A DNA stretch of 64,000 nucleotides from Deltaproteobacteria bacterium (GTDB lineage: Bacteria; Desulfobacterota; Binatia; Binatales; Binataceae). Within the stretch, counting starts at the first letter, position 1; every line of letters starts with the position of its first letter. Location: positions 1 through 64,000 of the forward strand of contig JAJXYF010000010.1 in the NCBI GenBank assembly GCA_021780755.1, given 5' to 3'. A model generated the notes under the pieces. The model worked only from the letters and a program-made list of their open reading frames with translations, was not told the origin of the DNA and searched no databases. This document shows, in pieces, positions 2,286 through 45,237 of the stretch. The translations under genes were made by a program, and so were the position numbers.

Positions 2286-3470
2286 ATGCCCGACAGTCCA
2301 CCGCTTGCAGGAATCAAGGTCGTCGATTTCACACGCTATCTCGCGGGGCCGTTTTGCACGCAGATCCTCGGCGATTACGGCGCCGAGATTCTCAAGGTCG
2401 AACCGGTCGCGGGCGCGCGCGGCGAGATGGGCGACGAGAGCGGCAAGGACACCTACTTCTTTCTGAGCACCAACCGCTCGAAGAAGAGCGTGCAGATTTC
2501 GACCAAGGCGCCGGAGGGGCGCGCGGCGCTGCAACGGCTGATCGACGGCGCCGACGTGGTGATCGACAACTTCCGGCCGGGCGTGATGGAAGCGATCGGG
2601 CTCGGCTACGAACAGATCGCGGCGCGCAACCCGCGGATTATCGCATGCAGCATTTCGGGCTTCGGCGCGAGCGGTCCGCTGCGCGACTATCCGGGCTTCG
2701 ATCAGATCGCGCAGGGCTTTTCCGGGCTGATGAGCGTGACCGGCACGGCGGCGAGCGGGCCGACGCGGGTGGGTATCGCGATCTGCGATCTGCTCGGCGG
2801 GATCTATGCGGCGCAGGGGATTTTGCTCGCGCTCGAAGCGCGCCATCGCACGGGCCGCGGCCAGCGGGTCGAGACTTCGTTGCTGGAGGCGATCGTCAGC
2901 ACGCTCAGTTGGTCGGCGGGAATCTACTTCGACACCGGCAAGACGCCGGGGCCCGCCGGCAACCATCATCCGCTGTCGTCGCCGCACGGCGTATTCGTGG
3001 CGGCGGACCGGCCGTTCAATATCGCGGTCGGGAACGAGGCGATGTGGCGGACGTTCGTTAAAGTGATCGGACGCGCGGAACTCGCCGAGGACGATCGCTT
3101 CAACAAGCTCGGGCGGCGGATCAAGAATCGTGACGCACTGACGGCGGAGATCAACGCGGCGCTGGGGGCGCATCCGGCGCAACATTGGATGGATCTGTTC
3201 AACGAGGCGGGGATTCCGTCGGGGCCGATCCTGACGATCGAGGAGATGTTTCAGCATCCGCAGGCGGCGGCGCGCGAGATGCTGGTGAAGATGGCGCATC
3301 CGGCGCTGGGCGAATTCAAGACGACCGGACTCGGAGTGAAACTGAGCGATACGCCGGGACGGATAACGCGGCCGCCGCTGGTCGGTGAGCATACGGAGGA
3401 CGTGCTGCTTGCGAACGGTTTCACTCAAGCCGAGATTGGGCATCTGCGCACGGTCAAGGCGATCAAGTAG
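2286..3470 (+). CDS. CaiB/BaiF family (family III) CoA-transferase
   Basis: Transfers CoA between a CoA thioester and a free carboxylic acid, soluble enzyme, substrate not predictable. At 394 residues it has the usual family length. The N-terminus (LAGIKVVDFTRYLAGPFCTQILGDYGAEILKVEP) and the body (YPGFDQIAQGFSGLMSVTG) are typical. The catalytic aspartate should be the Asp in AICDLLGGIYAA near residue 168, matching the position of the Asp169 nucleophile of formyl-CoA transferase. The start is supported by AGGAG at 2272-2276, nine bases before ATG. It stands alone, divergent from macA, so context gives no clue to the acid used. The family is certain; exact substrate (carnitine-, succinyl-, alkyl-succinate or bile-acid type) cannot be told. 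Confidence 0.93.
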   Translation: MPDSPPLAGIKVVDFTRYLAGPFCTQILGDYGAEILKVEPVAGARGEMGDESGKDTYFFLSTNRSKKSVQISTKAPEGRAALQRLIDGADVVIDNFRPGVMEAIGLGYEQIAARNPRIIACSISGFGASGPLRDYPGFDQIAQGFSGLMSVTGTAASGPTRVGIAICDLLGGIYAAQGILLALEARHRTGRGQRVETSLLEAIVSTLSWSAGIYFDTGKTPGPAGNHHPLSSPHGVFVAADRPFNIAVGNEAMWRTFVKVIGRAELAEDDRFNKLGRRIKNRDALTAEINAALGAHPAQHWMDLFNEAGIPSGPILTIEEMFQHPQAAAREMLVKMAHPALGEFKTTGLGVKLSDTPGRITRPPLVGEHTEDVLLANGFTQAEIGHLRTVKAIK

Positions 3471-3574
3471 GCGGTGCGGGGCGGTCGCGCGGGCTGGGCG
3501 TATCGGCGATACGGGGCCTGACTTCGCTTTTGCCAGGCGCGCAAAGGGTTTCGTCGAAAGTCAGTAGGAAATCT

Positions 3575-4075
3575 CTACACGAAGAAGAGGCGAAGATGTT
3601 TCACGTGAAACATCTTCGCCGGCTGTTTGCCGTCGTGCTTAATCTCGAGGTAGCGACAAACTATTTCGTCAACCGAGATATTCTGACGCCGATTAATCTT
3701 GTTGTAGTGCGTCCCTAAACGCCCCTTCAACGTTCCGGTCTCGCCTGATGTTTTACCAACGTAGACGAGATCAAACTTCAGCTTAGCGAGGATACTCTGA
3801 TCGAACGGATCTCTTCGCTCAGTTGGTTTCAGAATCTCGGCAAGCGGCCTTTCGTTTCTGTAGAGAGCGTATATGCCTGGAGATAAAGGAAAGGGGTATA
3901 TCTTCAAGCCAGCACGTTCGTCTGGTACCGCAAACGGGACATAGGGCGTCCGCGTGAATACCATGAGCAAATACGACCGCTTGTCGTCAGGGTCGAAATG
4001 GTGTGGCGGCGGCCGGAAGGGAATTCCCAATTTGCTTGACCGTTCGTTAGCCTGCCGTTGGCCGGTGGGAGACAA
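3575..4075 (-). CDS. GIY-YIG nuclease-like restriction enzyme, apparently 3'-truncated
   Basis: Candidate restriction partner of the upstream methyltransferase. The 166-residue product contains a GIY-YIG-like core: PGIYALYRN (about residues 67-75) and DLVYVGKTSG followed by GRLGTHYNKI, resembling the Eco29kI-type enzymes in which the two GIY/YIG elements are spread apart by an insert. In such enzymes a catalytic Glu and a terminal Asn motif follow the YIG strand and arginine helix. Here the frame instead enters the parS palindrome (encoding MFHVKH) and stops ten residues later, so that last part looks lost and the enzyme is probably inactive. It overlaps the methyltransferase end by 29 bp, so the pair was translated together. 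Family assignment is by motif only; truncation is inference. Confidence 0.6.
   Translation of the reverse strand: MSPTGQRQANERSSKLGIPFRPPPHHFDPDDKRSYLLMVFTRTPYVPFAVPDERAGLKIYPFPLSPGIYALYRNERPLAEILKPTERRDPFDQSILAKLKFDLVYVGKTSGETGTLKGRLGTHYNKINRRQNISVDEIVCRYLEIKHDGKQPAKMFHVKHLRLFFV
3589..3620. promoter_or_regulatory. parS: parS centromere-like site inside a 32-bp perfect palindrome
   Basis: Bases 3597-3612 read TGTTTCACGTGAAACA, identical to the consensus ParB-binding parS element, and the dyad extends without a mismatch to 3589-3620. parS sites nucleate ParB/Spo0J partition complexes and normally lie close to the replication origin. The site lies in the last codons of the truncated nuclease gene, where both strands encode MFHVKH. 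No parA/parB genes are in the window. The palindrome lacks a T-run, so a terminator role is less likely. Confidence 0.85.
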
Positions 4076-5735
4076 CCATTTCGAGGCGAGAATTTGCTAG
4101 CTTCGACTCGGCTACCTCAATCAACTTATACGCTCGCTCGGCAATAACCTGCGCAACCCTGACAGGGACGGCATTGCCAATTTGTCGCATGCATTCACCC
4201 CATGCTCCACTAATTATGTAATCATCGGGGAATGTCTGAATTCGCGCCGCCTCTCGAGCAGTGAAATACCTAACTCGCCCGTTCGGATACCGGAGCATGT
4301 TTTCGCCGCCAGGCACACCATGCACTCCTGCTTTCAATGTCTTTGCGGGCCAATCATAGGGACTGCCAGTGTGTCCTGGATATGCGCGTGCGCCGGGATT
4401 TCCAATGTGATTCGCGACTTGAAGACTAGCCTGGTAATTAGCCGGTGGCGGAAGTCCTCTAAGGGCGTCACGAACAGTTCGCCACCTCGGCGTGGTTGGT
4501 GGTAACGCATCCACCTCCATCGTGTGAATTAATTTCTTCAATCGCGCCGGAACCTCTGGTGCTTTCATCTGATGTTCGTGCCAGTAGGACCGGTCAACCC
4601 ATTGCGCATAGAGAAGCGCCGCCTCCGTGTGAGTCGGAACAAGCGGCTGCCATTCGACCGCGAGATCGCTCCGTACCGCAACCACGAATACACGCTCGCG
4701 CAGTTGCGGAACGCCAAAATTGGCGCAATTCACGAGTTGGAAATTGACCTCATATGAAAGGTCGGCAAACCGCCCAGTGCTCGATTCTCGCTCCAGTCTT
4801 GCCTTGTGCTCACGCCAAGATTCTTCCGGTTTAAGGCGAACTTCCGGTAACCGAAGTTGGAGCAAAACATAGTCGAAGTATTCTCGGAAACTTTGGCGGA
4901 GTAGGCCCTTCACGTTTTCGACGACAACAAGCTTTGGGCGTATCTCTCGAACTGCTCTAAGCAATTCGGGAAACATATTTCGGTTGTCGCGGTCACCCCG
5001 ATGCTTGCCACCCAGGCTGAAGGGTTGGCAAGGAACTCCGGCTGCCAACATCGTAATGCGGTCGGCATAGGGCTTAAAGTCAAAATCGCGTATGTCAGTT
5101 TCAAAGACGGGCCAAAGTGACACCAGTGGCATCCGGTCACGATTTGACCGGATCGTCGCGCAGGCATGTTTATCCCACTCGATTATGGCGAGGTGCTCGA
5201 ATCCGCCTCCCGCCATTCCCAAGGCCAGTCCGCCAACTCCGCTAAATGCTTCGATTGAGGTAAGGCGGTCGCGACGTTCCCCGGCGTGCGCGGTCGCCGC
5301 CTTTATCCGCCGCAAGCAGGCTCCGAGATCGGTCAGTACCTCGCTCTCCCACAGCCGGAGAGAACGCAAACCCAACGCGCCTAGCTCGGCGTCAACGTGT
5401 CGGTCCCGCGCGATATTATTTGTTATTTTTCTGGACCAGAATTCCGTGTTCCGGGCCGCCTGAAATTGGCTAGCGAGCGATTTGAATCCACGCGCGCGCC
5501 ACGAGTTGCCGTGCCAGAAGTCACCATCAACAAAGACCGCTAAACCTATCTTTGGAAAATAGATGTCGGGGCGACCGGGAAGATGATTGACGCAAACACG
5601 AAAACGGAGACCGGCAGCGTGCAGGGCCTTTCGCAAAGTCCTCTCAGGCTTTGTGTCACGAGAGCGGACCGCGGACATTATTCGCGAAGTTATAGCCGGG
5701 TCCCGCCTCTTATGCGCCACGTCCCATTCTCCCAA
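4047..5735 (-). CDS. Vsr endonuclease fused to C5-cytosine DNA methyltransferase
   Basis: A two-domain protein of 562 residues. Residues 1-145 or so are a Vsr very-short-patch mismatch endonuclease (SRIMSAVRSRDTKPERTLR, GRPDIYFPKIGLAVFVDGDFWHG, SLRLWESE), which nicks at T:G mismatches left by deamination of 5-methylcytosine. Residues 155-545 are a complete m5C methyltransferase: motif I FSGVGGLALGM, motif IV GVPCQPFSLGG with the catalytic Cys near 234, motif VI VVENVKGLL, motif VIII QLRERVFVV, motif X QIGNAVPVRVAQVI. Vsr and Dcm are usually separate genes, so the fusion is notable. ATG 5735 was chosen; a GTG five codons later is possible. The gene and its nuclease partner look visibly less GC-rich than neighbours, suggesting acquisition. 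Recognition sequence cannot be inferred. Confidence 0.93.
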   Translation of the reverse strand: MGEWDVAHKRRDPAITSRIMSAVRSRDTKPERTLRKALHAAGLRFRVCVNHLPGRPDIYFPKIGLAVFVDGDFWHGNSWRARGFKSLASQFQAARNTEFWSRKITNNIARDRHVDAELGALGLRSLRLWESEVLTDLGACLRRIKAATAHAGERRDRLTSIEAFSGVGGLALGMAGGGFEHLAIIEWDKHACATIRSNRDRMPLVSLWPVFETDIRDFDFKPYADRITMLAAGVPCQPFSLGGKHRGDRDNRNMFPELLRAVREIRPKLVVVENVKGLLRQSFREYFDYVLLQLRLPEVRLKPEESWREHKARLERESSTGRFADLSYEVNFQLVNCANFGVPQLRERVFVVAVRSDLAVEWQPLVPTHTEAALLYAQWVDRSYWHEHQMKAPEVPARLKKLIHTMEVDALPPTTPRWRTVRDALRGLPPPANYQASLQVANHIGNPGARAYPGHTGSPYDWPAKTLKAGVHGVPGGENMLRYPNGRVRYFTAREAARIQTFPDDYIISGAWGECMRQIGNAVPVRVAQVIAERAYKLIEVAESKLANSRLEMVVSHRPTAG

Positions 5736-5934: not shown

Positions 5935-7710
5935 TTAGGTTTCGCCGCGTTCCATGAAGCCTTCGAGGTTGCGCGAGCGCCCGGTCTGGCGCAACTTGCG
6001 CAACGCCTTGGCCTCGATTTGCCGGATGCGCTCGCGGGTCACGGCGAACTGCTTGCCGACCTCTTCGAGCGTGTAGTCGGTCTTCTGGCCGATGCCGAAA
6101 CGCATTCGGAGAATTTGCTCCTCGCGCGGGGTCAGCGTGGCCAGCACCTTGCGGGTCTGCTCGCCCAAGTTGCCCTGGATGGCGGCCTCGACCGGCGACG
6201 GCGCCAACTCGTCCTCGACGAAATCGCCGAGCGAGCTCTCTTCCTCGTCGCCAATCGGAGTCTCGAGGGAAATCGGCTCCTTGACGATCTTGAGGACCTT
6301 CTGGACCTTGTCGAGCGGCATCTCCATCTGTTCGGCGATCTCTTCCGGGCCCGGTTCGCGCCCGAGGCGCTGGACCAGCAGCCGGGTGACGCGGAGCAGC
6401 TTGTTGATGGTCTCGACCATGTGGACCGGGATGCGGATGGTGCGGCCCTGGTCGGCGATCGCGCGCGACATCGATTGGCGGATCCACCAGGTGGCGTAGG
6501 TCGAGAACTTGTAGCCGCGCTGGTACTCGAACTTGTCCACCGCGCGCATCAGGCCGATGTTGCCCTCCTGGATGAGGTCGAGAAAGCCGAGGCCGCGATT
6601 GGTGTAGCGCTTGGCGAGGCTGACGACGAGGCGCAGGTTGGCCTCGGTCAGTTCCTTTTTGGCGCGGCGGCTCTTGTCCTGGCCCGACGCGATGGTTTCG
6701 ATCGAGCGGGCGAATTCGTCGGTCGGAACTTTGACCCGCCGTTCGACCTCGCGAATGATCTTTTGCGCTTCCTTGATGCGCGCGGCGATATCGACGAGGT
6801 TCTCACGGGTGCCGTTGACCTTGAGCACGTGGCGGCGATCGTCAACCTCGGCGGCCTCGCGGATGAGTTGCGTGCGGGTGCGGCCGGTGGCGTCCTCGTA
6901 GCGCTGAACGCGGCGCTGGGATTCGCGCGCTTCCCTGAGCAGCCGGCGCATCTCACCGATGACGGCTTCGTGGACGTGGCGCGAAAGGTCGAGGCCGGCG
7001 AGCTCTTCCTTGATACTGTCCTTGAGCTTGAGGAACTGCTTGTCGAGCTTGGCGCGGTTGGGGCCCTTGGGCTTTTCCCTGATCTTCTCTTCGGTTTCTT
7101 CGACCTTGTCGCGCAGCGCCTTGAGTTTCTTGACGGCGGTGAAGAGCTTTTTAAGCTGCTTCTCGTCGGCCTCGGGGCCGCGCTCTTCGTCGGGATCGTT
7201 GGAAGGCTCCTCGTTTTGCTCGAAGATGCCGCTCTCGCGCAGATCGGTCTCGCCGGCCTCGATGCGGTCACCGACCTCGATCAGGAAATCGAGGGTGACG
7301 GGGGAGCGCAGGACCTCGTCCTCGACCTCGAACTCGCCGGCCTCGATGCGCTTGGCGATCTCGACCTCCTGCTCGCGCGAGAGCAGTTGGAAGTTGCCCA
7401 TCTCTTTGAGGTAGAGGCGGACGGGGTCGGAGGACTCGCTGAGCGAATCGGCGACGACGGGAGTCTCGGCGGCCTCCTCGGGCTCTTCCTTGACCTCGGC
7501 GTCGCCGTCGTCGTCAGCGCCGGCGGTCGGGACCTCGTCGAGGACCTTGATGTCCATGTCCTCGAAGCTCTCGAGTGCGGCGCGAAGATCGGTGGGTGAG
7601 GCGACGTCCTGCGGCAGGAAATCGTTGACCTGGTCGAACGTGAGGTAGCCCTGTTCGCGACCGAGATCGACCAGCCCCTGCAAATCTTTACCTTCGTACT
7701 TTTGTTTCAT
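5935..7710 (-). CDS. rpoD: RNA polymerase primary sigma factor RpoD (sigma-70)
   Basis: Housekeeping sigma factor that directs RNA polymerase to -10/-35 promoters. The 591 residues hold the full class-1 layout: region 1.1 ([25 protein letters not shown]), region 1.2 ([21 protein letters not shown]), a charged non-conserved insert with a coiled, Lys/Glu-rich part, region 2 ([19 protein letters not shown], then [18 protein letters not shown]), region 3 ([15 protein letters not shown]) and region 4 ending in a helix-turn-helix ([20 protein letters not shown]). ATG 7710 matches the family N-terminus. No dnaG precedes it, unlike many proteobacteria; a candidate promoter lies at 7871-7899 and a clear terminator follows. 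Identification is secure. Confidence 0.98.
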
Positions 7711-9267: not shown

Positions 9268-11589
9268 ATGAGTCGCTACCAGGAAATCTCGGCGCAGTTT
9301 TACGGCAACCGGCTGCTGTTCGGCGATCCGGCGGAGGCGGGGGTGGTCGCGGTCGAGGTCGCGTCGAAGGGCGAGGTGGAGATCTTCAAGCGGCGCGACG
9401 GAGCGATCGCACGTGAGCGGCGGCCGATAAAGCTGTTCGTGCTGATCGACGATCGGGCGCTAATGGCAGGATTTCGCGGCGCGCACGAGGTGGTCGAGCT
9501 GGCGGGTGACTTTCGCTTTCGGCACGCGGTGAGGTTCGACAACCTGGAGGTGCTGGAGGCGGCGCGGCGTCATCTACGCAGGGTCAGCGGGAAGGCCGGC
9601 GGAGCGCCCGACGCGCCGTGGTTCGCGCTGACCGATCCGATCGAGCAGCACCTGATGCTGAGCGGAACGACGTTTTTCATGGGGCTGCAATTCGGCGATT
9701 TGCGGCGCATGCAACTGGATATCGAGACCTACATCAGCGCGGGCTTCGAGTTTCCGACGGCGGCGCGGGAGGGCGACCGGGTGATCGCGATCGCGCTCAG
9801 CGACACCGACGGCTTCGAGCAGGTGCTGCGCGGCGACGCGATGGACGAGCGGGCGATGCTGGCGGAGATGGTGCGGGTGGTGCGCGAGCGCGACCCCGAC
9901 GTGATCGAGGGGCACAACCTGTTTCGCTTCGACCTGGAGTACCTGGAGGAGCGCGCGCGGCGCCATGGGATCAGGCTGGCGCTGGGACGCGACGGCAGCG
10001 GGTTGCGCGGCCGGGCGTCGCGGATGCAGATCGCGGAGCGGTCGATCGCGTTTCGGCGCTACGACATTTACGGGCGCAGCATTATCGACACGTGGATCCT
10101 CGCGCAGCATTACGATATCGCGAGCCGGGCGCTGGAGAGTTTCGGGCTGAAGGACCTCGCGGTGCATTTCGGGCTGGCGCGGGCGGGCCGGGTGTATCTG
10201 GACGCCGCGCGAGTGAGTGAGCATTTCGCGGAGCGACCCGGCGAACTTTTTGCGTACGCGCTCGATGACGTGCGTGAGGCGGGGGCGCTGTCGGCGGTGC
10301 TGGCGCCGAGCTATTTCGTGCAGGCGCAGATCTTTCCGTATTCGTTTCAGAACGCGGTGCTGCGCGGCAACGCGACGAAGATCGACGCGCTGCTGATGCG
10401 CGCGTATGTCGCGGCGGGTCATTCGATACCCGCGCCGGGGGCGCCGACCGAAGTGGCGGGCGGCTATACGGAAGTGCGGCGCTGCGGGGTCGCGCGCAAT
10501 GTGCTGCATTGCGACGTCACCTCGCTCTATCCGTCGCTGATGATCGAGGGGCCGCATCGGCCGGCGGCGGATCGGCTGGGGGTGTTTTTGAAGCTGCTGG
10601 AGGACCTCCGCAGTTTTCGGGTGCAGGCGAAGGCGGCGGTGCGCGAACTGACCGGGGCCGAGCGGCGCGACCTGGAGGCGTTGCAGCAGACCTTCAAGAT
10701 CCTGATCAATTCGTTCTACGGCTACCTGGGTTTTTCGCTCGGTCATTTCAACGATTTCGCGGCGGCCAACGTGGTGACGCGGCGCGGGCGCGAGCTGATC
10801 AAACGGGCGGTCGATGAACTGGAGGCGCGGGCGGCGCGGGTGATCGAGGTCGATACCGACGGCATCTACTTCGTGGCGTCGTTCGCGATCGCGGACGAGG
10901 CGGCGGCGCAGGCGCTGCTCGACGAGATCGGGGAGAGCCTGCCGGCGGGGATCCGGCTCGAGATCGACGGACGCTATCCGGCGATGTTCAGCTACAAAAT
11001 GAAGAATTATGTGCTGATCGACGATCGCGGCGAAATGACGATACGGGGGTCGGGGCTCAAGTCGCGGGGGCTGGAGCGCTTTCAGCGGCGCTTCATGGAG
11101 GAGTTGTTCCGGCTGCTGCTGGAGGATCGGCGCGAGGAAATTCCGCGGCTGTACGCGGACTGGCGCGGGCGTCTGGAGCGCCACGGGATTGGAATTCGGG
11201 AGCTGATGAAGACCGAGACGCTGCAGGACTCGCCGGAGTTGTATCGCGAAAAAATCGGGGGCGGGCGGCGCAACGTGTCGGCGGCCTATGAACTGGCGCT
11301 GAAGGCGGCGCGGCCGTATCTGAGCGGCGACCAGATTTCGTACTACGTGGGCGGGCGTGGCGCGAAGGTGAAGGTGAACGCCGCGGCCAAGATGGCGTCG
11401 GAGTACGACGCGGCGAATCCCGACGAGAACGTCGAATACTATTTGGCCAAGCTTGCGGACCTGTACGAAAAATTCAGGCCGTTCGTCGAACGTGCGGGGC
11501 TCTTTGCGCCCGACGAGATCGACGATGGGGGCCGGGCGGGCGGCGAACAGCAGGAGATGTTCGCGGCCCCGGCCAAATCGGACGAATAG
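9268..11589 (+). CDS. Family B DNA polymerase (Pol II-like) with 3'-5' exonuclease
   Basis: DNA-directed DNA polymerase with proofreading, 773 residues, a little shorter than E. coli Pol II (783). All key motifs are present: Exo I LDIETY (Asp/Glu near 150-152), Exo II GHNLFRFD (near 215), Exo III YALDD (near 329), Pol motif A DVTSLYPSLMI (near 414), motif B KILINSFYGYLG (near 476) and motif C VDTDGIYF (near 529). Exonuclease and polymerase are therefore both predicted active. An acidic, Gln-rich tail ending GEQQEMFAAPAKSDE may hold a sliding-clamp-binding peptide (QQEMF). Probable role is repair or translesion synthesis rather than replication. ATG 9268 follows a G-rich stretch that can serve as ribosome site. 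Confidence 0.93.
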   Translation: MSRYQEISAQFYGNRLLFGDPAEAGVVAVEVASKGEVEIFKRRDGAIARERRPIKLFVLIDDRALMAGFRGAHEVVELAGDFRFRHAVRFDNLEVLEAARRHLRRVSGKAGGAPDAPWFALTDPIEQHLMLSGTTFFMGLQFGDLRRMQLDIETYISAGFEFPTAAREGDRVIAIALSDTDGFEQVLRGDAMDERAMLAEMVRVVRERDPDVIEGHNLFRFDLEYLEERARRHGIRLALGRDGSGLRGRASRMQIAERSIAFRRYDIYGRSIIDTWILAQHYDIASRALESFGLKDLAVHFGLARAGRVYLDAARVSEHFAERPGELFAYALDDVREAGALSAVLAPSYFVQAQIFPYSFQNAVLRGNATKIDALLMRAYVAAGHSIPAPGAPTEVAGGYTEVRRCGVARNVLHCDVTSLYPSLMIEGPHRPAADRLGVFLKLLEDLRSFRVQAKAAVRELTGAERRDLEALQQTFKILINSFYGYLGFSLGHFNDFAAANVVTRRGRELIKRAVDELEARAARVIEVDTDGIYFVASFAIADEAAAQALLDEIGESLPAGIRLEIDGRYPAMFSYKMKNYVLIDDRGEMTIRGSGLKSRGLERFQRRFMEELFRLLLEDRREEIPRLYADWRGRLERHGIGIRELMKTETLQDSPELYREKIGGGRRNVSAAYELALKAARPYLSGDQISYYVGGRGAKVKVNAAAKMASEYDAANPDENVEYYLAKLADLYEKFRPFVERAGLFAPDEIDDGGRAGGEQQEMFAAPAKSDE

Positions 11590-12040: not shown

Positions 12041-12086
12041 TTATACATTTCCAGACGCTGTTTGGGTGGAGGGGGAGGGTTTAACC

Positions 12087-15000
12087 ATGCATCGAAAACG
12101 AGACTGTTGCACGGCTAAAAAACTAGCAGGTGCCTGGAAGACTTTGCCTTTAATGGCGCTGATGCTTGGCCTGATGCTGTTGGCAATCTCCGGCACAGAG
12201 GCGGGAGCCGGAGAGAAGGGACATCCGACACCTCCGAGCTTGTGTTCGAATGCGTTCAACCCGCCGACGACGAACGCGGTCGCGCTTTCAAGTTGCCAAC
12301 GCGGTGCGAAACACGCACAAAACGTAACTATCGGTGCCGGCGGGTGCGGCCCCGACGTTTACGTCGATCAGTCGTTCATGGGCGCAAATGCCTTCCGCAA
12401 AATCACGATCAACACTGGCGGTCAACTGGTGTTTCCCTACGACCCGGGTTACGAGCTCGACGCCTCGGCGATCGTGATCAACAACGGCGGAACATTCCAG
12501 GTTGGCAACTCCCAATGCCCAATCGGCCTCACTAACAAAAGCGACGTGGCCGAAGTCAACTTCGTCGATCCGACGCCCGCGTTTAAACGGGTGGGTCTGA
12601 TTAAGGGAATTACGGTCAATCAGGGCGGCACGTTGCAGCTATACGGCGCGACCGGCGTCGCGGCGACAACCCCGGCGGTGGGCGCGAATCCGCAGGCGCC
12701 CAGTTGGACCTATCTTGCCGCTCCGGCAGGGCCGCCGGACCTCTATGGCACTGGAATGGGAGTCGGCAGCCCGGTCGGCGGCGACGGCGCATTGACCCTA
12801 CAAGTGGCGGATTACGTGGACTGGCAAACGGGCCAATGGATTGTGGTAGCGGGTACGGACTTTTCGCCCGACGGCGCCGAGTTCGTGCAGATTAACGGCG
12901 TAAGCTGCACCGGCCCGGCCACCGGACCCTGCACGATCACGCTTGATTCGACCACACCGCTGGTTAACTACCATTTCGGCGGCCCGGCGCCTGACGTGGG
13001 CGCCAATGCCTTCACTGATGGGTCCAGTCAGAACTACGGCGTTGACGAACGGGCCGAAGTTGGCCTGATCAGCCGCAACGTCAAGCTCACCTCCACGATC
13101 GCGCCCGGCAATCCTTTCAACGGTGGCGAAATCCGCATCATGAAGGGCTACAACGCGGTGCAGATCCAGGGCGTTGAACTCGAGAAATTCGGCAAGGCTC
13201 AGCTCGGCAGCTATCCGATTCATTTTCATAAGGCGGCCAACGCGGGCGCCAATACACTGGTTGACAGCAACAGCATCCATCACGGTTACAACCACTGCAT
13301 AACCCTGCACGACACCAACAATGTGACCATCAGCAATAACGTGTGCGCCCGGATCGTCGATCACCTCTTCTATACGGAGACCGGCAACGAAACCGGCAAC
13401 ACCTTCATCGACAACCTCGGCATCGGCGCGATGAGCAATGGGTTTAACATCACGGGCAACCCGGGTGCGCTAGCCGCCTTCTGGAGCGGCGATTACCTGG
13501 CGAGCGCAAACGGATACAACGGGTTCAACATTCCCTTCACCGACCAAACGAGCAGTGTTTTGGGCAGTTCGTACACCGCTTCCGGCTTCTGGATCACTAA
13601 TCCCGGAGGCAATAAATTCGTGGGCAACTCGATCGCGGGATGCCAGGATCAGGGCCGGGGATTCTGGATGCTACCCGCGAGCACCGCGATCGCCCAGGTG
13701 CCGCTGCCCAAGGGCAACTTCAAATCGAATCGGGCGCATGGATGCTATACGGGCTTCGATACGGCGGAAGACATCGGCGTGACCGGTGCTTATGGCTACA
13801 TCCCGCAGACGACCTGCCTCGGCGGAAACAATGTGGGTCAGAAGGGCGCGTGTGACGCGATCACCGAATTCGACGACCTTACCGCAACGCGCGATCGCAA
13901 TCGCGGAATCTGGGTCCGCGCAAGCTGGTACAACCTGGAGCGCGCCCATCTCGCCATGAATCGCGATGGGGTGTCGCTGGTCTCCAGCGGCGGCACCGAA
14001 GGCTCGCCCCCGGGCGAATGGAGCCGGCTCAACGACGCCATCGTGGTCGGCGTCAGCGCCAACAACCCGAATCGATTCGGACCGTGTCCTTACAACGGTC
14101 AGAACGGCGGATTCGGAGGCGTCGCCGGCTGCTACGAATCGATCGCGAACCAGGGCAACGGCTATCCCGATCCCAAGTGGAACATCGCCGGCGTGATGTT
14201 CTACGACGGCCCCGCGCGAATCGAGAAGACCAAATTCGTCAACTTCAAGGCCGACCCCAGTTCACTGCTTACGTTGTCCGATCAGACGTTTCTCAATTAC
14301 TACGAGTCGTCGTGGGCCGGCCAAAAGATGACCTGCGATCCGCAGGTGAATTTTCAGTATGAAGGCGACGCCGCGATGGGCTGGTTTCAGTCCAACGTCA
14401 ACAGCTACCCACCGACGCAGTACACGGAAAACCTGAGCTACGATAATGTCGATCTGCGCCATGAGATCTACACGCAAAGCGTGGAGAACACCTGCGCACC
14501 CAGCGGAGGCGCCAATTTCCGCGACGGCGACAAGTTCACCGTCATCCTCGATCACGACGCCAGCCTGAGCGGCCTCGAGATCTTGCCGCCCGGCGGCGGG
14601 AGCACACCGGTACCCGGCGTCTCACCTATTTCGCTCAACAACCTGCCCTTTCTGTCCGGACCCGGCACGGTTGACGAATGCCTGTCAACTGGCGCACAGG
14701 ACCTCGCACTGGAAGGGCGTCCGACCTCGCTAATCAGTCCATACGACTATGCGACACTGGAGTTCGAGGCCCTGACCAGCGGCGGCAACGACAACGTGAT
14801 GGTGTTTAACAAGGACCAGATCGATTATCCCGATAACACCGGCGCGGGACAGATCCAGTTCACCGATCAAACCATCACCAACGGCGGCGCAACCTACCCG
14901 ATTAATTGCGGGGGCAGCGCGGATGCGAAGTTAGCCGGTGTCCTCGGTCACGCCTGTGTGGCGCTGAGCGGCCGTAACGGACAGGGGATCTACGAGCCCA

Positions 15001-16190
15001 AGTTGGTCAACGGTCTGGGCTATACGGTGGGGGCGCAATACGGGATGCCGAACTTCGTCTCGCTGATGTACGGGGACGCGAGCCTGCCGGGCGGCATTTC
15101 GTCCGCCGAGCCGTTCCACGCGCGAATCGGTATTTGCTACAAGAACGAGGGCGCTAGCGCACCTCCGCCGGCCAGCGCCTTCACCGTTTACAAGGGTAGC
15201 AAATCCTTTGCCGGCCCCGACGCACTGATTAGCTCGCTGGAACCGTACTATACAGCACTGGCCTGCAACGCATTCACCAACCTCAAGTCGCTGTGTCCTT
15301 CCGCGCCCTATTATTATCTTTCAGAGGGCGCGCCAATCATCTCGAATACAAAGATGCCATTGGCGCCGGTCGCATCGATAAGTCAGCTCGATGACCAGTC
15401 AGTCTGCCCCAATGGGGATTGCTACTATTACGATGCTACTTCGGGCCTGCTCTTCATCGACATGGTTCAGGAGCAACCCAACGCCGGCGGTCCATATACC
15501 TCACCGCTGGGTAGTTGCAGCGGGAGCAAGGCGACCAGCGACCCGGCCTGCGCCAAGGAGAATTTTTACTCCTGTCCGGGCCCTGGATGTGAACTCTACA
15601 CCGTTCATGTGAAAAAGAAGTTGTATCAACCCGGGACCGCGTCCGACTGTACGCCCTATGGAGGAGCCGGCGGCGCTACGGACTACACCGAGGCTTACCC
15701 GGACGGCCTCAACGTGCTCGCCTACGCGTCCGACGACACCTCGGTGACGACCGCGCTCGAAGGGGCAACGCCGCTGCCCGCCGCGCCGTTCCCGCATCGG
15801 GCGGCGACCAACGCGCCGACGAATTTATGTCCGGTCAACGCACCGGACACGCCGGACTGGCCGCCACCCTCGTCAGTCCCGAGCCAGTTCTTTCAAATCA
15901 ACTCGCCGCCGGGCGTTACGGTAACCCTCTCGCCCAGCGTCGCGCCAATACCCAGTCTCACGCCACTCTATCCGCTAACTGAGGGGACGACTTACACCTT
16001 GTCTGCCGATGATCCCGGATGCGCGACCACCAATGGCTCCCCGTACTGCTCGTGCGAACAAACGTTCGTCGTCACCAGCGATGGATGGGCGAACCCTGTT
16101 TCACCCAACTCTAACTGTTGTCAACTTGGCGGGATCGGCTCAACTACCATCGCGCCAGCCGCGGGACCCTACGCGTGCGTAGGGCCGTAG
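12087..16190 (+). CDS. Very large secreted protein with G8/CEMIP-like and parallel beta-helix regions
   Basis: Predicted exported protein of 1367 residues. ATG 12087 is preferred over an in-frame GTG at 12066 because GGGAGG (12073-12078) lies eight bases upstream. A signal peptide (basic start, hydrophobic LPLMALMLGLMLLAIS, likely cut after EAGA) is followed by Gly-rich short repeats (KITINTGGQLVF, AIVINNGGTF, GITVNQGGTLQLYG) like a G8 domain, then DWQTGQWIVVAGTDF, EVGLISRNVKL, VQIQGVELEKFGKAQLGSYP and SYPIHFHKA (about 376-384), then beta-helix turns (SNSIHHGYNHCITLHDTNN). This order recalls vertebrate CEMIP/TMEM2 hyaluronan-degrading proteins and PKHD1. The C-terminal 500 residues are Cys- and Pro-rich and unrecognised. 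Polysaccharide binding or cleavage outside the cell is an inference. The downstream hairpin at 16216-16253 may end the transcript. Confidence 0.75.
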   Translation: MHRKRDCCTAKKLAGAWKTLPLMALMLGLMLLAISGTEAGAGEKGHPTPPSLCSNAFNPPTTNAVALSSCQRGAKHAQNVTIGAGGCGPDVYVDQSFMGANAFRKITINTGGQLVFPYDPGYELDASAIVINNGGTFQVGNSQCPIGLTNKSDVAEVNFVDPTPAFKRVGLIKGITVNQGGTLQLYGATGVAATTPAVGANPQAPSWTYLAAPAGPPDLYGTGMGVGSPVGGDGALTLQVADYVDWQTGQWIVVAGTDFSPDGAEFVQINGVSCTGPATGPCTITLDSTTPLVNYHFGGPAPDVGANAFTDGSSQNYGVDERAEVGLISRNVKLTSTIAPGNPFNGGEIRIMKGYNAVQIQGVELEKFGKAQLGSYPIHFHKAANAGANTLVDSNSIHHGYNHCITLHDTNNVTISNNVCARIVDHLFYTETGNETGNTFIDNLGIGAMSNGFNITGNPGALAAFWSGDYLASANGYNGFNIPFTDQTSSVLGSSYTASGFWITNPGGNKFVGNSIAGCQDQGRGFWMLPASTAIAQVPLPKGNFKSNRAHGCYTGFDTAEDIGVTGAYGYIPQTTCLGGNNVGQKGACDAITEFDDLTATRDRNRGIWVRASWYNLERAHLAMNRDGVSLVSSGGTEGSPPGEWSRLNDAIVVGVSANNPNRFGPCPYNGQNGGFGGVAGCYESIANQGNGYPDPKWNIAGVMFYDGPARIEKTKFVNFKADPSSLLTLSDQTFLNYYESSWAGQKMTCDPQVNFQYEGDAAMGWFQSNVNSYPPTQYTENLSYDNVDLRHEIYTQSVENTCAPSGGANFRDGDKFTVILDHDASLSGLEILPPGGGSTPVPGVSPISLNNLPFLSGPGTVDECLSTGAQDLALEGRPTSLISPYDYATLEFEALTSGGNDNVMVFNKDQIDYPDNTGAGQIQFTDQTITNGGATYPINCGGSADAKLAGVLGHACVALSGRNGQGIYEPKLVNGLGYTVGAQYGMPNFVSLMYGDASLPGGISSAEPFHARIGICYKNEGASAPPPASAFTVYKGSKSFAGPDALISSLEPYYTALACNAFTNLKSLCPSAPYYYLSEGAPIISNTKMPLAPVASISQLDDQSVCPNGDCYYYDATSGLLFIDMVQEQPNAGGPYTSPLGSCSGSKATSDPACAKENFYSCPGPGCELYTVHVKKKLYQPGTASDCTPYGGAGGATDYTEAYPDGLNVLAYASDDTSVTTALEGATPLPAAPFPHRAATNAPTNLCPVNAPDTPDWPPPSSVPSQFFQINSPPGVTVTLSPSVAPIPSLTPLYPLTEGTTYTLSADDPGCATTNGSPYCSCEQTFVVTSDGWANPVSPNSNCCQLGGIGSTTIAPAAGPYACVGP

Positions 16191-19061: not shown

Positions 19062-22000
19062 TCATGGCAGGGGGCATTGGGTAGACGTCGTCGGTTGCTT
19101 CGTATACGTGCATTGCTGCCCGGCGACCGAAGCGCTTTCGAGATTGAAGTTTACGTTCCAGTAAGGGTCGTTAGTAAAATTAAATTCCCCCGCCTCTGGT
19201 CGATGATTTTTATCGTCGGCGACGAAGCAACCCTCCGTCTGACCGTCGGTGCATGCGGGCGGAAACTTGATCTGAAAGGCCGGGCATCCCGCCGCCGGAC
19301 AGTCGAGATCCTTCACCGACCAGTCGCATACGGTCTGTTTGGCCGTATTCATTTGCGAACAAATGGAAGCGTAAGGACCGCTTGTATTGCACTGGCATTG
19401 GTTGGCGCCGCTGTTCCACGTGCACATCGTCGCAGGCTGGCAAACTTTTTTGCCCAGCGTCACAGGCGGTTTACTGTTCGGAACCGTGGCGCTTAAAGCA
19501 TACTGGGTGGCGATTTTCGACGCATCGAACTTCAGCGTAAGGTAGCCCGTGGACGGATCGTAATTGCTGCTCCACGCGCCGCTGCTACCGTCGGAGCCGG
19601 CGCCGGAGAACTGAAACGGCAGGGTCAGGCCCTCGTAGCCGGGGTTCACATTCCCTTGCTTGTCCCAATCCGCGGGCAATCCCTTTCCGATGAATAATAT
19701 ATAGGTCTGGAATGTGTCTCTTTTTGTGAAGAGAAAGAACAGGTCATACAGATTTCCGCCAGTGAGAGTATTGACGCTGAGGAACTGGTGGTCTTGCTGC
19801 GTCTTCTTCGAGATCGTGGTGTCGATATAATAGACGCCATGATTCGCGGTCAGGGCGCTGCGCTGGAAATTATCCTGACCCATCATTCGTTTCATTTGTT
19901 TGATGGGATCCTGCTTTTCTCCTGAAACAAGCAGTTGCCGATAGATCGGCACGCCCATACAACCATTGTCCGGCGGGGATGTGGTGCAGGAACTGCCCCA
20001 ATTTTTATCGGCACAAAATCTCAAACCTTTTACATCCGGCACGGTTTTGGCGCATTCCGGATAGACCACCGTACTGACATATTCGTAAGGGCTGGTCTTC
20101 GCCGTCGCAGGCAGGCACTTGGCATCGCCTTGCGCGTTGATCGGATAATCGGAAGCGCATTCCCAGGCCTCGGTCGGCGCGTTGAAGAAGGTTTCTTTGT
20201 TGACCGAGATGGTGTCATTTATCGATGGGGTGGGAACAGGGCTGGGCGCCGCGCTGATCGGGCTGCTCAGGCCGGTCAACGAACCATCGTCGTCGTTCAG
20301 CACGGTCTCGCGATCGATATCGGTAAAACCCTGGAACATGCCCGGGTCCCAGTTGCAGTATTCCTTCTTGGCCTCACCTTCGTCGGTCTTGAAGCTGAAG
20401 AGGTCGGGTTTAAACAGCGGTTCAGTGACAAAATGGCGGATGTCAACGCCGCTGAAGAAGAGGTTGTACGAATGAAAGGCGGGAGCATAATAGAATCCAT
20501 TAGGCTGTTTCCACCCAATCGCCGCGTTTGGCTCGAAACATAATTTCTTGTTGTTCAGGCGATAAGCGCGAATGCCGGTGACGCCGCCGCTGATGAAGCC
20601 TGCCCGATCGCAGGGTCTTCCGACGTCTGGATTCGCCTCACAGGGGCCGGACGGGGTTTTCAGGATTTCGCCATTGATCGTTCCGTCGGAGGTAAGGAAG
20701 GTGGGATGAATATTGAGATAGGCGTTGGTGTCCTGGAAAATCGGACCATCATATACGCTGAACAACCGCTGAAAGCCGCCGAAGTTGGAAACCTGAAAGC
20801 TCACTTGATCATTCTGCGACAAGCAATATGCGTTGTTAACCCCGGCGGAATTTGGATCGGCCGCGCATTTCAGGCCAGTAACATCTTTGGTTCCGATCTT
20901 CGCCGAAAACGGATTGAACGGCCCCGCGTTCGATGCGTAGGGATTATTCGCGAGACCGTCGGTGTATTTTGGATTCTTCCATTGCGAGCTGCCAATCAGC
21001 GCGGTCTGGCGCATCAATCCCCAATATCCTGGAAATACCGACGAAGTGTCGTAGCCGCCGCTGGTGACGAAATTGACTCCCGCATTCTGCGGATCGCTGA
21101 CGACGTTATCGACCGTCAGCGACCAAAGCGATCTCAGCCAGATCGCCGCAAAATTGGTTTGCGCCCAGTTGAACGAGGTCGTGAACTTGTCCAGCACCAC
21201 CACGTCGCAATTGGCTTCATTGCCGGCGGCGCAGGTCGGAACCGTGGAACATTCGGCATTGGCCGTGCCATTGTCGGCAGCGGAGCATCGCGTGGGGTAC
21301 CGCAGACCGGTGATTTGCGGGTAATAATTGGCGTCGCTTTGCGGCGGCGCGGACGGCGAGGGCAACATTACCAGCGTGGTGTTTTTGTTTTTTAACCGCG
21401 ACGTATCGTTCTGATTAACGCCGTTGCAGGCATTGATTGCGCCGACTTCCACGAAACTTTCCATGGCGGTGGTGCAAGTATTGCCGACGAAGGTTTCAAG
21501 TGGAGTGGTCCCCGCTCGTCCAAGCGACAATTGTTCGCCGGCGTAGCCATACCACTTTTCGTATTGCGAGGGGCCACTAATCGCGCCAGGCACGAACCAG
21601 TAGCATGCGCCGCAAGTGCCCGCGCCGGCGGCCATGTTGTACTCGAAATCGTTCATGCCGTTCATGATCCAGAAGACCGACGGATTATCCGAGTCCGAGT
21701 AGTGCGAAAGGTCGTTGTACCCGCTTGGACAGAATTGAACGTTATTTTTGCATTTATCATCCACAGGAGCCGTGGCCGTCAGGATGCCGGGCGCCATGCG
21801 CGGATTTTGCGGATTCGTATCCGCCGCGGTCCCGCCGGATGAATTGGCCACCGCGGCGCGCGCGAAAACGCCAAGATTGGCGTAAAGCTGATTGCCGGTT
21901 TCGGTGCCGTCCTCGAGGTAATAGCCGTGGCCGATCGATAAATAGCCAATGTTACGCGCGAGCATGACGCCCTGCGTCGCATGCAGGACGATCCAGCGCG

Positions 22001-23318
22001 TCATCGAATCCCAGACCGAGCTATCTTTTACGAAGGTTGGAGAATTCGTGGGCGTTGCCCGGACCATGTGGAAATGGACAGGGTAGTGCATGATGCTGCC
22101 GCCCTGGCCGAGCTGGTAGAATTCGACGCCCTGGACCTGCACGGACGTGAAGCCCTGGCGCACGATGGTATGGCCGCCGAAGTAGTTGTCGGGATTTCCC
22201 GGATTGACGGCAAAAGCCGACCCGGGCGTGTCGCCGTCAGAGATTATCCGTATGTTGCGCGACAACAGGCCGACGGCGGCGCGCATATCGCCCGACGTCG
22301 GAAAGTTCGTTAGCTTGTCAATTCCGGGAAATGATGTGCTCGACAGGTCGAATAACTGGCCGTTGTGCGGATTCTGAACCGCACTGACAAGGTTAATCGT
22401 CGTAGTATTTGCGCTCTCGTTGTAACTCGGCGCGCCGCTGATTTGCAGCAACTCCGAATGCGAAGGCAGATAGTCGGTCGTGGTGATGACGATCTGGTTT
22501 TGGTCCTGCCAATCCACCTGTCCATTGACGACGATTTTCATATCGCCAGGCAACGCATCTTGAGCCAGCCGAACCCAGCTTGTCCCCGTGCAAGATGCAG
22601 GTTTGTTTGCGGAATCGGCACATCCGGTAAGCGAAGCGTCGTTATAGGTCGCGCCGGTCTTGCCATAAAGCTGTAAAGTGCCGCCGTAGGACACGCTCAG
22701 GACCTTGTGGCCGAAATAGGCGGGCGCCGTTCCGTCCGCTTTATCGAGCGTCTCGTAGTTGTAGAAGCAGTCGGTCTGTCCAGTTGGAAAGGTAAATGGC
22801 TTGCAGGCGCCGGGATTCAAAGTGCTCGCGGTATTGTCGCCCCAAGGGGAACTCGGGATGCCGCAGTTGGTCGAGTTGCACAAGGCGCCGGGGTCGGAGG
22901 GCGCACCCCACAGATGGATCGTCACTTCGTTGCTGGTCGCGACCGTTCCAATCGGCGCGGCCGGCAGGCCTGCGAGTAATTTGCCTTGATTTTCGATCAA
23001 AATGTTTTCGGCGTAAAATTCGGTATTGGCGTCAGTAAATATCAAACTTCCACCATTGACGACATTTACGGTGTGAAAATAATACGTAGCTGGCGTATCA
23101 GTGTTTGAGCCTTGCACTGTGCACGTCCCCGAGACGACGAGGTCGGCGGGAGTCGTTCCTGGAGTGTAGGTGTTCGGCGATATGGTCCCGCCGGTGCAGG
23201 TCGCGGCTATCGCGGATCTGGGTAAAATAGCAAAACTTGATAGCAACAGACTTAAAATGACGACTAAGAATCCTTTAGACATCACCGGGGGAGTCTGAGC
23301 TTTCTCGACAATCGTCAT
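19062..23318 (-). CDS. Second very large secreted G8/CEMIP-like protein
   Basis: Predicted exported protein of 1418 residues. ATG 23318 has AAAGGA about ten bases upstream; ATG 23282 would shorten the signal peptide (MSKGFLVVILSLLLSSFAILPRSAIAA). The mature part begins with short Gly/Thr-rich strands, then GGTLQLYGKTG, a WVRLA...GDMKIVVNGQVDWQDQNQIVITTTDYLPSHSE segment, VGLLSRNIRII, GFTSVQVQGVEFYQLGQGG, MHYPVHFHM (near 409-417), DSMTRWIVLHATQGVMLARN and DGTETGNQLYANLGV. The block order is that of the CEMIP/TMEM2 (KIAA1199) family and parallels the 12087-16190 protein, though the two differ elsewhere. Cys-rich C-terminus (QCNTSGPYASICSQMN, PAAGCPAFQIKFPPACTD) is unrecognised. Divergent from the propeller lipoprotein with only 95 bases between starts, so co-regulation is likely. 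Confidence 0.75.
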   Translation of the reverse strand: MTIVEKAQTPPVMSKGFLVVILSLLLSSFAILPRSAIAATCTGGTISPNTYTPGTTPADLVVSGTCTVQGSNTDTPATYYFHTVNVVNGGSLIFTDANTEFYAENILIENQGKLLAGLPAAPIGTVATSNEVTIHLWGAPSDPGALCNSTNCGIPSSPWGDNTASTLNPGACKPFTFPTGQTDCFYNYETLDKADGTAPAYFGHKVLSVSYGGTLQLYGKTGATYNDASLTGCADSANKPASCTGTSWVRLAQDALPGDMKIVVNGQVDWQDQNQIVITTTDYLPSHSELLQISGAPSYNESANTTTINLVSAVQNPHNGQLFDLSSTSFPGIDKLTNFPTSGDMRAAVGLLSRNIRIISDGDTPGSAFAVNPGNPDNYFGGHTIVRQGFTSVQVQGVEFYQLGQGGSIMHYPVHFHMVRATPTNSPTFVKDSSVWDSMTRWIVLHATQGVMLARNIGYLSIGHGYYLEDGTETGNQLYANLGVFARAAVANSSGGTAADTNPQNPRMAPGILTATAPVDDKCKNNVQFCPSGYNDLSHYSDSDNPSVFWIMNGMNDFEYNMAAGAGTCGACYWFVPGAISGPSQYEKWYGYAGEQLSLGRAGTTPLETFVGNTCTTAMESFVEVGAINACNGVNQNDTSRLKNKNTTLVMLPSPSAPPQSDANYYPQITGLRYPTRCSAADNGTANAECSTVPTCAAGNEANCDVVVLDKFTTSFNWAQTNFAAIWLRSLWSLTVDNVVSDPQNAGVNFVTSGGYDTSSVFPGYWGLMRQTALIGSSQWKNPKYTDGLANNPYASNAGPFNPFSAKIGTKDVTGLKCAADPNSAGVNNAYCLSQNDQVSFQVSNFGGFQRLFSVYDGPIFQDTNAYLNIHPTFLTSDGTINGEILKTPSGPCEANPDVGRPCDRAGFISGGVTGIRAYRLNNKKLCFEPNAAIGWKQPNGFYYAPAFHSYNLFFSGVDIRHFVTEPLFKPDLFSFKTDEGEAKKEYCNWDPGMFQGFTDIDRETVLNDDDGSLTGLSSPISAAPSPVPTPSINDTISVNKETFFNAPTEAWECASDYPINAQGDAKCLPATAKTSPYEYVSTVVYPECAKTVPDVKGLRFCADKNWGSSCTTSPPDNGCMGVPIYRQLLVSGEKQDPIKQMKRMMGQDNFQRSALTANHGVYYIDTTISKKTQQDHQFLSVNTLTGGNLYDLFFLFTKRDTFQTYILFIGKGLPADWDKQGNVNPGYEGLTLPFQFSGAGSDGSSGAWSSNYDPSTGYLTLKFDASKIATQYALSATVPNSKPPVTLGKKVCQPATMCTWNSGANQCQCNTSGPYASICSQMNTAKQTVCDWSVKDLDCPAAGCPAFQIKFPPACTDGQTEGCFVADDKNHRPEAGEFNFTNDPYWNVNFNLESASVAGQQCTYTKQPTTSTQCPLP

Positions 23319-32109: not shown

Positions 32110-33516
32110 TCATTCATTCGCGCATTTCGCTGGTGTTCCGCGTCCGGCGACATACGCGTCGACCAACCTCTCTGCGATCGTTGGGTTCGACGCCCAATGA
32201 GCGTGGACGTATGACGCCAAAGTGTTTTTGACAGTGTAGCCTTCCGGCACGACCTGCCCGTCGCGACGACGAACCACCCGGTATGCACAGTCGATCCGAT
32301 CCTTCAGCGGCTGTAGTTCGGAATAGCGGAATTGATGGCCACGAAATCGAAGTCCTGCCGGGCCGAGCGCCGACGCCGCTTGCGTCTCGACCTCAACGTA
32401 TCCAAGCGCCTGCAGCCGCTCGTGCATCACCGCATGCGCTGGGATCACTCCAGCCATCGGATAGCGTTGTCCGTCCAGAGTTTCGATCGCGTCGCATAGG
32501 TACATCAGTCCGCCGCATTCGGCGTATATGGTTCCACCATCCGTGGCGAATGCACTAATCTGCTCGCGCATCGAAACATTCGCAGAGAGAGCTCGAGCGT
32601 GAATCTCAGGATAGCCACCGCCGATATAGAGACCGTTCACGTCTGGCAAGCCTGGATCGGAGATCGGCGAAAAGTACACGAGTTCCGCGCCCAGACTCTT
32701 GAGGAGGTGGAGATTGTATTCGTAGTAAAAGTGGAAGGCCTCGTCGAAGGCGACACCAATTCTACATCGCGATGATGATGACGCTGCTTCGGCTTTCGCA
32801 GACAGTTGACACGACACAGGGGGAGCAGCACGCGCGACAGTAAGAATTGCGTCTAGATCGCACCATTCCCCAGTTACTCTTCCCAACTCGGACAGGATTG
32901 AGTCGGGCACGGCCTGTTCGTCGGCGGTACGCAGTCCCAGGTGCCGCTCGGGAAGGGTCAATGCGGGTTCGTTGGGCAACCCTCCCAATACAGGTGGATC
33001 ACTCAAGGCTCTGCGCAAGATGTCGAGGTGGCCTCGGCTCCCCACCCGATTGCAGAAGATTCCCGCCAGCCGTAATTCGGGGTCGAACACGGCAACTCCG
33101 CGCGCAATCGCAGCCACCGTGCGCGCCATCCCCGAAACATCGATGACCAGCATCACCGGCGCATCAAGCCACTTTGCGATCTCCGCCGTGGAGCCCTCTT
33201 CCGTGGCAGGCGAGGCTCCATCGAAAAGGCCCATCACACCTTCGACGAGGGCGATGTCAGCTCCCTCGCACGCGCGGGCGAAAGTACCAATCACTGCGTC
33301 CCGGCCCATCATCCAGCCGTCGAGGTTATGACAAGTGCTGCCCGCAGCTCGCACATGATAGGTAGGATCGAGGTAGTCGGGGCCGCATTTGAAGACTGCG
33401 ACTTTGAGACCTCGCTCGCGCAATGCGCGAGTCAGACCGACCATCACACTGGTTTTGCCGATCCCGCTTGCGGTACCGGCTACAACCAGTCGTGGCATGG
33501 TGATGGAATTAGCCAT
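32110..33516 (-). CDS. cobB: Cobyrinate a,c-diamide synthase CobB/CbiA
   Basis: ATP- and glutamine-dependent amidation of side chains a and c of (cobalt-)cobyrinate. 468 residues with an N-terminal P-loop domain (VVAGTASGIGKTSVMVGL, FKCGPDYLDPTYH, GVMGLFDG) and a C-terminal class I glutaminase with the nucleophile Cys in YAECGGLMYL and His in GHQFRYSE. A non-conserved Ala/Ser-rich linker (AKAEAASSSSRC) joins the two. Follows bluB by 42 bases and precedes cbtB by 59. Since cobQ is broken, this is the only complete amidase of the operon. Confidence 0.96.
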   Translation of the reverse strand: MANSITMPRLVVAGTASGIGKTSVMVGLTRALRERGLKVAVFKCGPDYLDPTYHVRAAGSTCHNLDGWMMGRDAVIGTFARACEGADIALVEGVMGLFDGASPATEEGSTAEIAKWLDAPVMLVIDVSGMARTVAAIARGVAVFDPELRLAGIFCNRVGSRGHLDILRRALSDPPVLGGLPNEPALTLPERHLGLRTADEQAVPDSILSELGRVTGEWCDLDAILTVARAAPPVSCQLSAKAEAASSSSRCRIGVAFDEAFHFYYEYNLHLLKSLGAELVYFSPISDPGLPDVNGLYIGGGYPEIHARALSANVSMREQISAFATDGGTIYAECGGLMYLCDAIETLDGQRYPMAGVIPAHAVMHERLQALGYVEVETQAASALGPAGLRFRGHQFRYSELQPLKDRIDCAYRVVRRRDGQVVPEGYTVKNTLASYVHAHWASNPTIAERLVDAYVAGRGTPAKCANE

Positions 33517-33558
33517 CGGAGATTACGCCCTAGTCAGTTCCTTGCCTTCGGAGCGTGA

Positions 33559-34337
33559 TCATCGCTCGCGTCCCTGCGCTGGCCCCTTCAAAAGGGGCTC
33601 GCAGTTCAAAAGGGGCTCGCAGTTGCCACGCATCGCTTCGCCGTCGACAATGCCGAGAACTCTCGACAACTCCGGCGAAGGTGCCTCGTTCCAATGATTC
33701 CTAAAGACTAGTTCCGTCAGTGGAAGTCGCGGCAGCCACCCAGCAGTCTCGAGCATCGGCCGCTTCGGGAACTCCTCAGGGAACCCAAGGCATAGATACC
33801 CGACAACCACCACGTCAATCGGGATTCCAAGCATCTCCCGTAACGCGTCGGGTTGAAGAAGGCTCACCCAGCCCACGCCAAGCCCTTCCGCCCGCGCCCC
33901 GCAAGCCACAGGTTCTGTATTGCGGCGCACGTGCTGTAAAGGTCCGTGTCGCGCATCGTGTTGCGTCCCAGCACAGCCGGGCCAAAGCGCCTTCGGTCAC
34001 AGGTGACGCAAATGTTCAGGGGTGCGTCGAGAATGCCTTCCAGTTTGAACGAGAGGTATTGTTCGCGTCGTTCTCGATGGAAGGTCTGGGCAGCACGCAG
34101 CCGTTCCGCTTCGACATGAGCGCGAATCTTTTTCCGCAGCTCAAGATCGTCGATGACGATAAAGTTCCACGGTTGAGAGAAGCCAACGGAACCTGCCTGA
34201 TGTGCGGCGGACAAAATCCGCGCCAGCGTTTCCGGAGCAACCGGATCCGATCTGAACGATCGGACGTCCCGGCGGCGTGCTATCGCTTCATAGACGCCTC
34301 GTCGCCACGCGGACGGAAATACGTTCACCGGTTCCAT
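33559..34337 (-). pseudogene. bluB: 5,6-dimethylbenzimidazole synthase BluB, split by a frameshift
   Basis: Flavin enzyme of the nitroreductase fold that cleaves FMNH2 with O2 to make the lower ligand of B12. The N-terminal part (34337 down to about 33905) is clear: YEAIARRRDVRSFRSDPVAP, AGSVGFSQPWNFIVI, CVTCDRRRFGPAVLGRNTM, CAAIQNLWLA. The C-terminal part continues only in another frame: GARAEGLGVGWVSLLQPDAL, VGYLCLGFPEEFPKRP. The shift falls in a GCGGGGCGCGGG run near 33898-33908, so one lost G or two extra would explain it; a sequencing error is possible. The start overlaps cobA-hemD by 13 bases. An 18-bp tandem duplication lies in the last codons. Confidence 0.9.
33587..33622. repeat. 18-bp tandem duplication in the bluB tail
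   Basis: TTCAAAAGGGGCTCGCAG occurs twice head to tail (33587-33604 and 33605-33622), duplicating six codons (NCEPLL) near the bluB C-terminus. Confidence 0.9.
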
Positions 34338-36621: not shown

Positions 36622-36629
36622 CAGTCTCC

Positions 36630-42832: not shown

Positions 42833-42847
42833 GATTCAGCCGTCATC

Positions 42848-43959: not shown

Positions 43960-43972
43960 TTGATCCTCTCTC

Positions 43973-45157: not shown

Positions 45158-45237
45158 CGCGCTACGCTCGGAGACGTCCGCGTGAGGTTGCGTTCCGCGA
45201 CTCAACCTCGACGCCGTCAATTGAAAATGAAGGCATC

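Follow-up and report, generated by a model that had tools for sequence, protein, structure and literature searches.

The window, that is, the whole 64-kb stretch of DNA analysed here, carries an exact parS core within an extended palindrome, in the segment between a CoA-transferase gene and rpoD. The features of the locus are as follows:

2286-3470, plus strand: family III CoA-transferase, whose 3' end flanks parS on the left, a conserved arrangement in this genome (G000) and sister species G004
3564-3633, plus strand: asymmetric dispersed cassette with extended parS; its TACACGAAGGAGAGGCGAA arm occurs with at most 3 mismatches at nine places
3575-4075, minus strand: shortened GIY-YIG nuclease ORF (166 aa), the last 18 codons and stop of which are supplied by the cassette
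3579-3583, plus strand: left outer outrigger ACGAA (TTCGT outward, positions 14-18, one helical turn out), from the site alignment
3589-3620, no strand: perfect 32-bp dyad with inverted-repeat arms 100% complementary
3590-3594, plus strand: left inner outrigger GCGAA (TTCGC outward, positions 3-7), from the alignment of all genome sites
3597-3612, no strand: parS core TGTTTCACGTGAAACA, exact match; the genome has 19 exact copies in all
3615-3619, plus strand: right inner outrigger TTCGC (positions 3-7), from the alignment of all genome sites
3626-3630, plus strand: right outer outrigger TTTGC (positions 14-18), from the site alignment
4047-5735, minus strand: single ORF with Vsr mismatch endonuclease and C5 DNA methyltransferase domains (Pfam PF03852, PF00145), which are normally encoded by separate genes
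5935-7710, minus strand: rpoD (sigma-70), which bounds the variable segment on the right

Elsewhere in the window, a run of cobalamin-biosynthesis-like genes occupies 32110-45529 on the minus strand, with a cobalamin riboswitch ahead at 45321-45529, and a tRNA-Thr gene and a transposase-like ORF are flanked by two very large proteins (12066-16190 and 19062-23318) that look secreted and are alike in style.

The initial annotation of this DNA had described a consensus parS within a flawless 32-bp dyad, and both elements were confirmed. The core matches without a single mismatch, is the sole match in the window even when 3 mismatches are allowed, and has a chance expectation of ~0.0002 for the 16-mer in a 3.9-Mb genome of ~61% GC. 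The dyad arms (GGCGAAGATGTTTCAC and GTGAAACATCTTCGCC, 16 nt each) are fully complementary and are not separated by a spacer. Both a symmetric motif of ~52 bp and the longer dispersed cassette contain the dyad as their inner portion. Perfect dyads at the dispersed sites range from 18 to 36 bp in length; perfection at any given site depends on the free positions, and the flawless 32 bp in the window result from the same outrigger motif on both flanks together with chance agreement at those positions. The 30-bp form of the dyad found one match among 84,980 other species genomes, in an unrelated genome; the extended palindrome was therefore rejected as a general feature of parS and is particular to this lineage.

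The alignment of the genome sites revealed the symmetric consensus parS-T-N-TTCGC-N6-TTYGY in 18 of the 19 exact sites, the sole exception being C16:106011. Read outward from the core, it consists on both sides of a T at position 1, a TTCGC-like outrigger at positions 3-7 and a TTYGY-like one at positions 14-18, the spacing of 11 bp corresponding to one helical turn. The motif is common to three sites of the origin cluster and to the dispersed sites. Nine sites outside the cassette family (six dispersed and three at the origin) were chosen to separate common descent from function, and 1T, 6G, 14T and 17G were present in 18 of their 18 half-flanks, a count which treats half-flanks as independent, though they are perhaps not fully so, and which was made on the same sites by whose inspection the motif had been discovered. 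In these half-flanks, the pairwise identity at spacer positions 9-13 (0.24-0.39) was at background. The TTTCGC-like outriggers seem, from their letters, to resemble degenerate half-parS (TTTCGC vs TTTCAC), and the exact half-parS heptamers GTTTCAC or GTTCCAC were not matched in them. That the outriggers contact ParB in this organism is a guess, and their phasing suggests that ParB loading can be influenced by sequence beyond the 16 bp of the core.

In the window, parS overlaps the 3' end of the minus-strand nuclease ORF. The GIY-YIG Pfam match of this ORF was weak (E=0.015, below the cut-off) and ended at position 57 of 78, and a complete domain including the C-terminal part, as in Eco29kI-like nucleases, was not found. 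Two homologues were detected in the class (G041 and G060), both with stop codons within the matched stretch, and none in plasmids, viruses or PDB. The window protein aligns with both up to CRYL, after which it ends in GKQPAKMFHVKHLRLFFV, encoded by the reverse strand of the cassette. The loss of the usual C-terminus, as claimed in the initial annotation, is supported by the G041 homologue (L100), which continues beyond this point with ...EFALMVHYEPEWN.... Both the catalytic Glu and the terminal Asn of GIY-YIG enzymes presumably fall within this tail, and since cassette residues have taken its place, the window protein is probably an inactive nuclease. The further proposal that recombination delivered parS and trimmed the nuclease holds in part: the tail has been replaced by the parS repeat, and copying of the cassette is plausible, but G004 already has a parS at the orthologous position. 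In that genome, parS lies ~50 bp after the CoA-transferase and is followed by other accessory ORFs (BrnT/BrnA-like, as read from the sequence, and one whose protein has a DpdB match), while in G000 the order from the CoA-transferase stop to rpoD is parS, the GIY-YIG ORF and the Vsr-methyltransferase ORF. Because parS stands at the same place beside different genes in G004, it probably, by parsimony, predates the restriction genes at this locus. The other genus members have, within reach of their contigs, neither parS nor rpoD at the orthologous place.

The genome (42 contigs) contains 19 exact parS, two with one mismatch and one with two, and the reversed-pattern control gave 0. Decayed copies are almost absent; of these only three near-parS, two belong to the origin cluster, and in the third the match overlaps the repeat's right arm at C14. 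The cluster, located on C16 at 106.0-109.4 kb, comprises four exact and both one-mismatch sites in the gene neighbourhood parB-parA-rsmG-gidA-mnmE-(rnpA)-yidC, in which all names except parB come from reading of the ORFs; we take the order parB-parA-rsmG-gidA-mnmE-yidC to be the classical oriC neighbourhood. The cluster sites form three pairs ~110 bp apart (C16:106011-109405), within a repeated module of ~150 bp that contains a GGACAACGTGAGCG-like sequence. ParB, encoded beside parA and gidA, is the single TIGR00180 match in the genome (E=1.8e-52), and established knowledge makes it highly likely that ParB would bind an exact parS in a genome with the cognate protein. The other 15 exact parS, including the window copy, occur as single copies on 12 further contigs. 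The proximity to the origin considered in the initial annotation is therefore not borne out, as the oriC-type cluster lies on another contig and the window site is one of 15 dispersed copies. The annotation had also held that many similar palindromes across the genome, or a lack of parB, would speak against its reading; the former are largely present, in the form of the dispersed exact parS, and a chromosomal parB was found.

Many of the dispersed copies are carried by a common cassette. The asymmetric unit TACACGAAGGAGAGGCGAARA-parS-TYTTCGCGGTCTGTTTGCCGTGAAA is shared by eight dispersed sites, its similarity continuing, more weakly, beyond the left end. The genome search with the left arm alone yielded nine places within 3 mismatches, all nine with intact parS; at one of them (C10) the match is limited to the inner part of the arm. 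The right arm alone occurs at 13 places: all seven within 2 mismatches adjoin parS, as do two of the six with 3 mismatches, and the remaining four look like chance (control 3). A short reading frame that opens within the repeat (MFHVKHLRGLFAVK, preceded by AAGGAG) was considered spurious, since at most sites its peptide diverges as soon as the repeat ends. A plasmid or phage origin of the cassette was rejected, as neither the cassette nor the extended palindrome matched any plasmid or viral contig. Small hairpins (TTCACCCAAAATGGGTGAA) are repeated to the right of some dispersed parS (L013-L016, L023).

Dispersal like that of this genome is absent in five of the six other genus members compared. 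G002, G003, G005 and G006 have 3-4 exact parS each, all on the parB contig and a few kb from parB, and the fragmented G001 has one, on a short contig other than that of parB. Sister species G004 has three exact parS in the cluster and five dispersed, the latter with other flanks that partly share the TTTGCSGTGAAATCC side; among the stretches compared, the window locus is the only dispersed site common to G000 and G004. Within the family, genomes carry between 0 and 29 copies of the central 14-mer (controls 0), and the counts are high in several genera (G012 24, G041 24, G039 29, G054 16). Since the flanks differ by genus, as in g15 with its parS-N13-parS pairs and TTYAGTTCAGGAGAACGAAACGCGAA, the expansion of parS probably occurred more than once, independently in other genera of the family, as far as the flanks tell. 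G039 (L080-L094) has 27 exact parS, often in close pairs separated by ~13 bp and with TTYAGTTCAGGAGAACGAAACGCGAA as a common flank on one side, and in G012 (L033-L042) CCACAGGAAATTT-like motifs that resemble DnaA boxes lie no more than ~50 bp after several of the dispersed parS.

Taken together, the window feature is probably an ectopic extended parS, a predicted ParB-loading site that was spread by a cassette and is kept by selection. The only chromosomal ParB of the genome would bind and load, as ParB-CTP, at the dispersed sites and may recruit SMC there, far from oriC; the outriggers may strengthen or orient ParB binding or be read by a partner. A short cassette would have carried the copies into gene-poor junctions, and the loss of ParB binding would have been selected against. 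The proposed role of the dispersed sites would then be secondary loading of ParB and SMC. Selection on ParB binding is suggested by the core, which is conserved amid diverging arms, and by the phased motif at otherwise unrelated flanks. The recurrence of dispersed extra copies with other flanks in several genera also speaks for the reading as a whole.

Two live rivals of a secondary-loading role have to be considered. The stronger, somewhat unlikely on the present evidence, is a selfish or passive small repeat (MITE- or REP-like), in which parS would be cargo or a by-product, ParB binding would be useless to the cell and the cores would be intact through recent spread. It agrees with an asymmetric cassette common to 8-9 sites in different surroundings, with the species-specific expansion and with the accessory genes that adjoin several copies: the restriction genes of the window, a DRT-type reverse transcriptase (L015) and an IS1595 transposase (L025). 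However, the nine cassette copies have a pairwise identity of ~0.80 in the arms vs 1.00 in the core, although recent spread or gene conversion could account for part of this invariance, and sites with unrelated flanks as well as origin sites obey the same phased motif. Moreover, the genome gave no match at E<=0.001 to the REP-associated Y1 transposase RAYT (PF01797), a search that was positive in 5 of 14 control genomes, and RAYT-type mobility was thus rejected. A role as a defence-island marker was likewise rejected, as defence genes (the restriction-modification genes of the window, the DRT at L015) adjoin some sites and housekeeping genes most. The reverse transcriptase at L015:5382-7118 (G000 C32) is of the DRT6/DRT4 type and lies beside both a dispersed parS and a recD2 helicase gene.

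The second rival, an ordinary large origin domain in which all copies surround oriC as in Streptomyces, Listeria or Myxococcus, appears unlikely. Species with ~20 parS near oriC are known (PMC7333895, PMC3899335), and a dif-like sequence, CTTCGCATAAGATATATTATGTAAACTAG, likely the dif site, lies on C42 (L079 about 9950-9978; G000 C42:21249-21270), a 181-kb contig without parS, which also means that the dispersed sites may possibly avoid the terminus. With a draft assembly of 42 contigs, distances from oriC can be given only as bounds, and placement of contigs by GC skew, uninformative without contig order, was dropped. Nevertheless, even in the tightest packing of the 12 contigs on both arms around the C16 cluster, with nothing in between, the sites take up no less than 1.50 Mb, which is 38.5% of the assembly and 36% of the genome size after correction for completeness, and the most remote site is 752 kb or more from the cluster. 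The parS set as a whole, at least 36% of the chromosome, thus exceeds the 20% given in reviews for the origin domain that holds the vast majority of parS (PMC7022226). In Caulobacter, extra parS clusters are tolerated mainly within ~500 kb around the native cluster, and in both Caulobacter and Pseudomonas extra parS are poorly tolerated beyond ~500-650 kb round the native cluster or origin (PMC5815017), which weighs against the reading as dispersed loading sites. The four genus members with exact parS only close to parB also argue against a large origin domain.

Local regulation, in which ParB at dispersed sites would silence or modulate neighbour genes and the sites would be kept for gene control, is very improbable: 14 of the 15 sites are intergenic (the exception is the window site, within the end of the shortened ORF) and many are at most 100 bp from a predicted gene, as called by a simple ORF and GC3 heuristic that disregarded small or low-scoring ORFs across sites, but the neighbours are functionally unrelated (aconitase, TruB, NAD kinase, PgpA, CoA-transferases), their orientation is mixed and divergent promoters are few.

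Beyond the predicted selected loading site in the window, it may tentatively be proposed that the lineage uses chromosome-wide ParB loading points instead of a single origin domain: phased extended parS, multiplied by a copyable cassette and arisen anew with different flanks in related genera, would recruit ParB, and perhaps SMC, at intervals over a large part of the chromosome. The dispersal is of interest since parS has been regarded as restricted to the neighbourhood of the origin. The reasons for this restriction, and the way in which centromere regions acquire additional copies, are named as open questions in the literature (PMC7333895, PMC5815017), and a family with repeated escape of parS from the origin cluster, in which sister species keep the cluster alone, offers a natural experiment for both.

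Compared with known systems, the dispersed sites resemble REP/BIME elements with RAYT in being short palindrome-bearing intergenic repeats present in many copies per genome, but here RAYT (PF01797) is lacking and the palindrome is a known, strongly conserved protein site. The outriggers resemble degenerate versions of the half-parS of Pseudomonas aeruginosa (TTTCGC vs GTTTCAC), half-sites of this kind being bound by some ParB proteins (PMC10419367), whereas here the putative half-sites are fixed at two positions on each side of a full parS. The high-copy sets of Streptomyces, Listeria and Myxococcus also comprise ~20 copies per genome; theirs lie near oriC according to the literature, while the sites described here cover at least 36% of the chromosome. 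With chromosomal parS of the ParABS (Spo0J/ParB) type, the system shares the 16-bp consensus, multiple copies and one ParB next to parA, rsmG and gidA, and it differs in the 15 copies outside the origin cluster on 12 contigs, in their cassette-borne flanks and in the symmetric extension to ~52 bp with 11-bp phasing.
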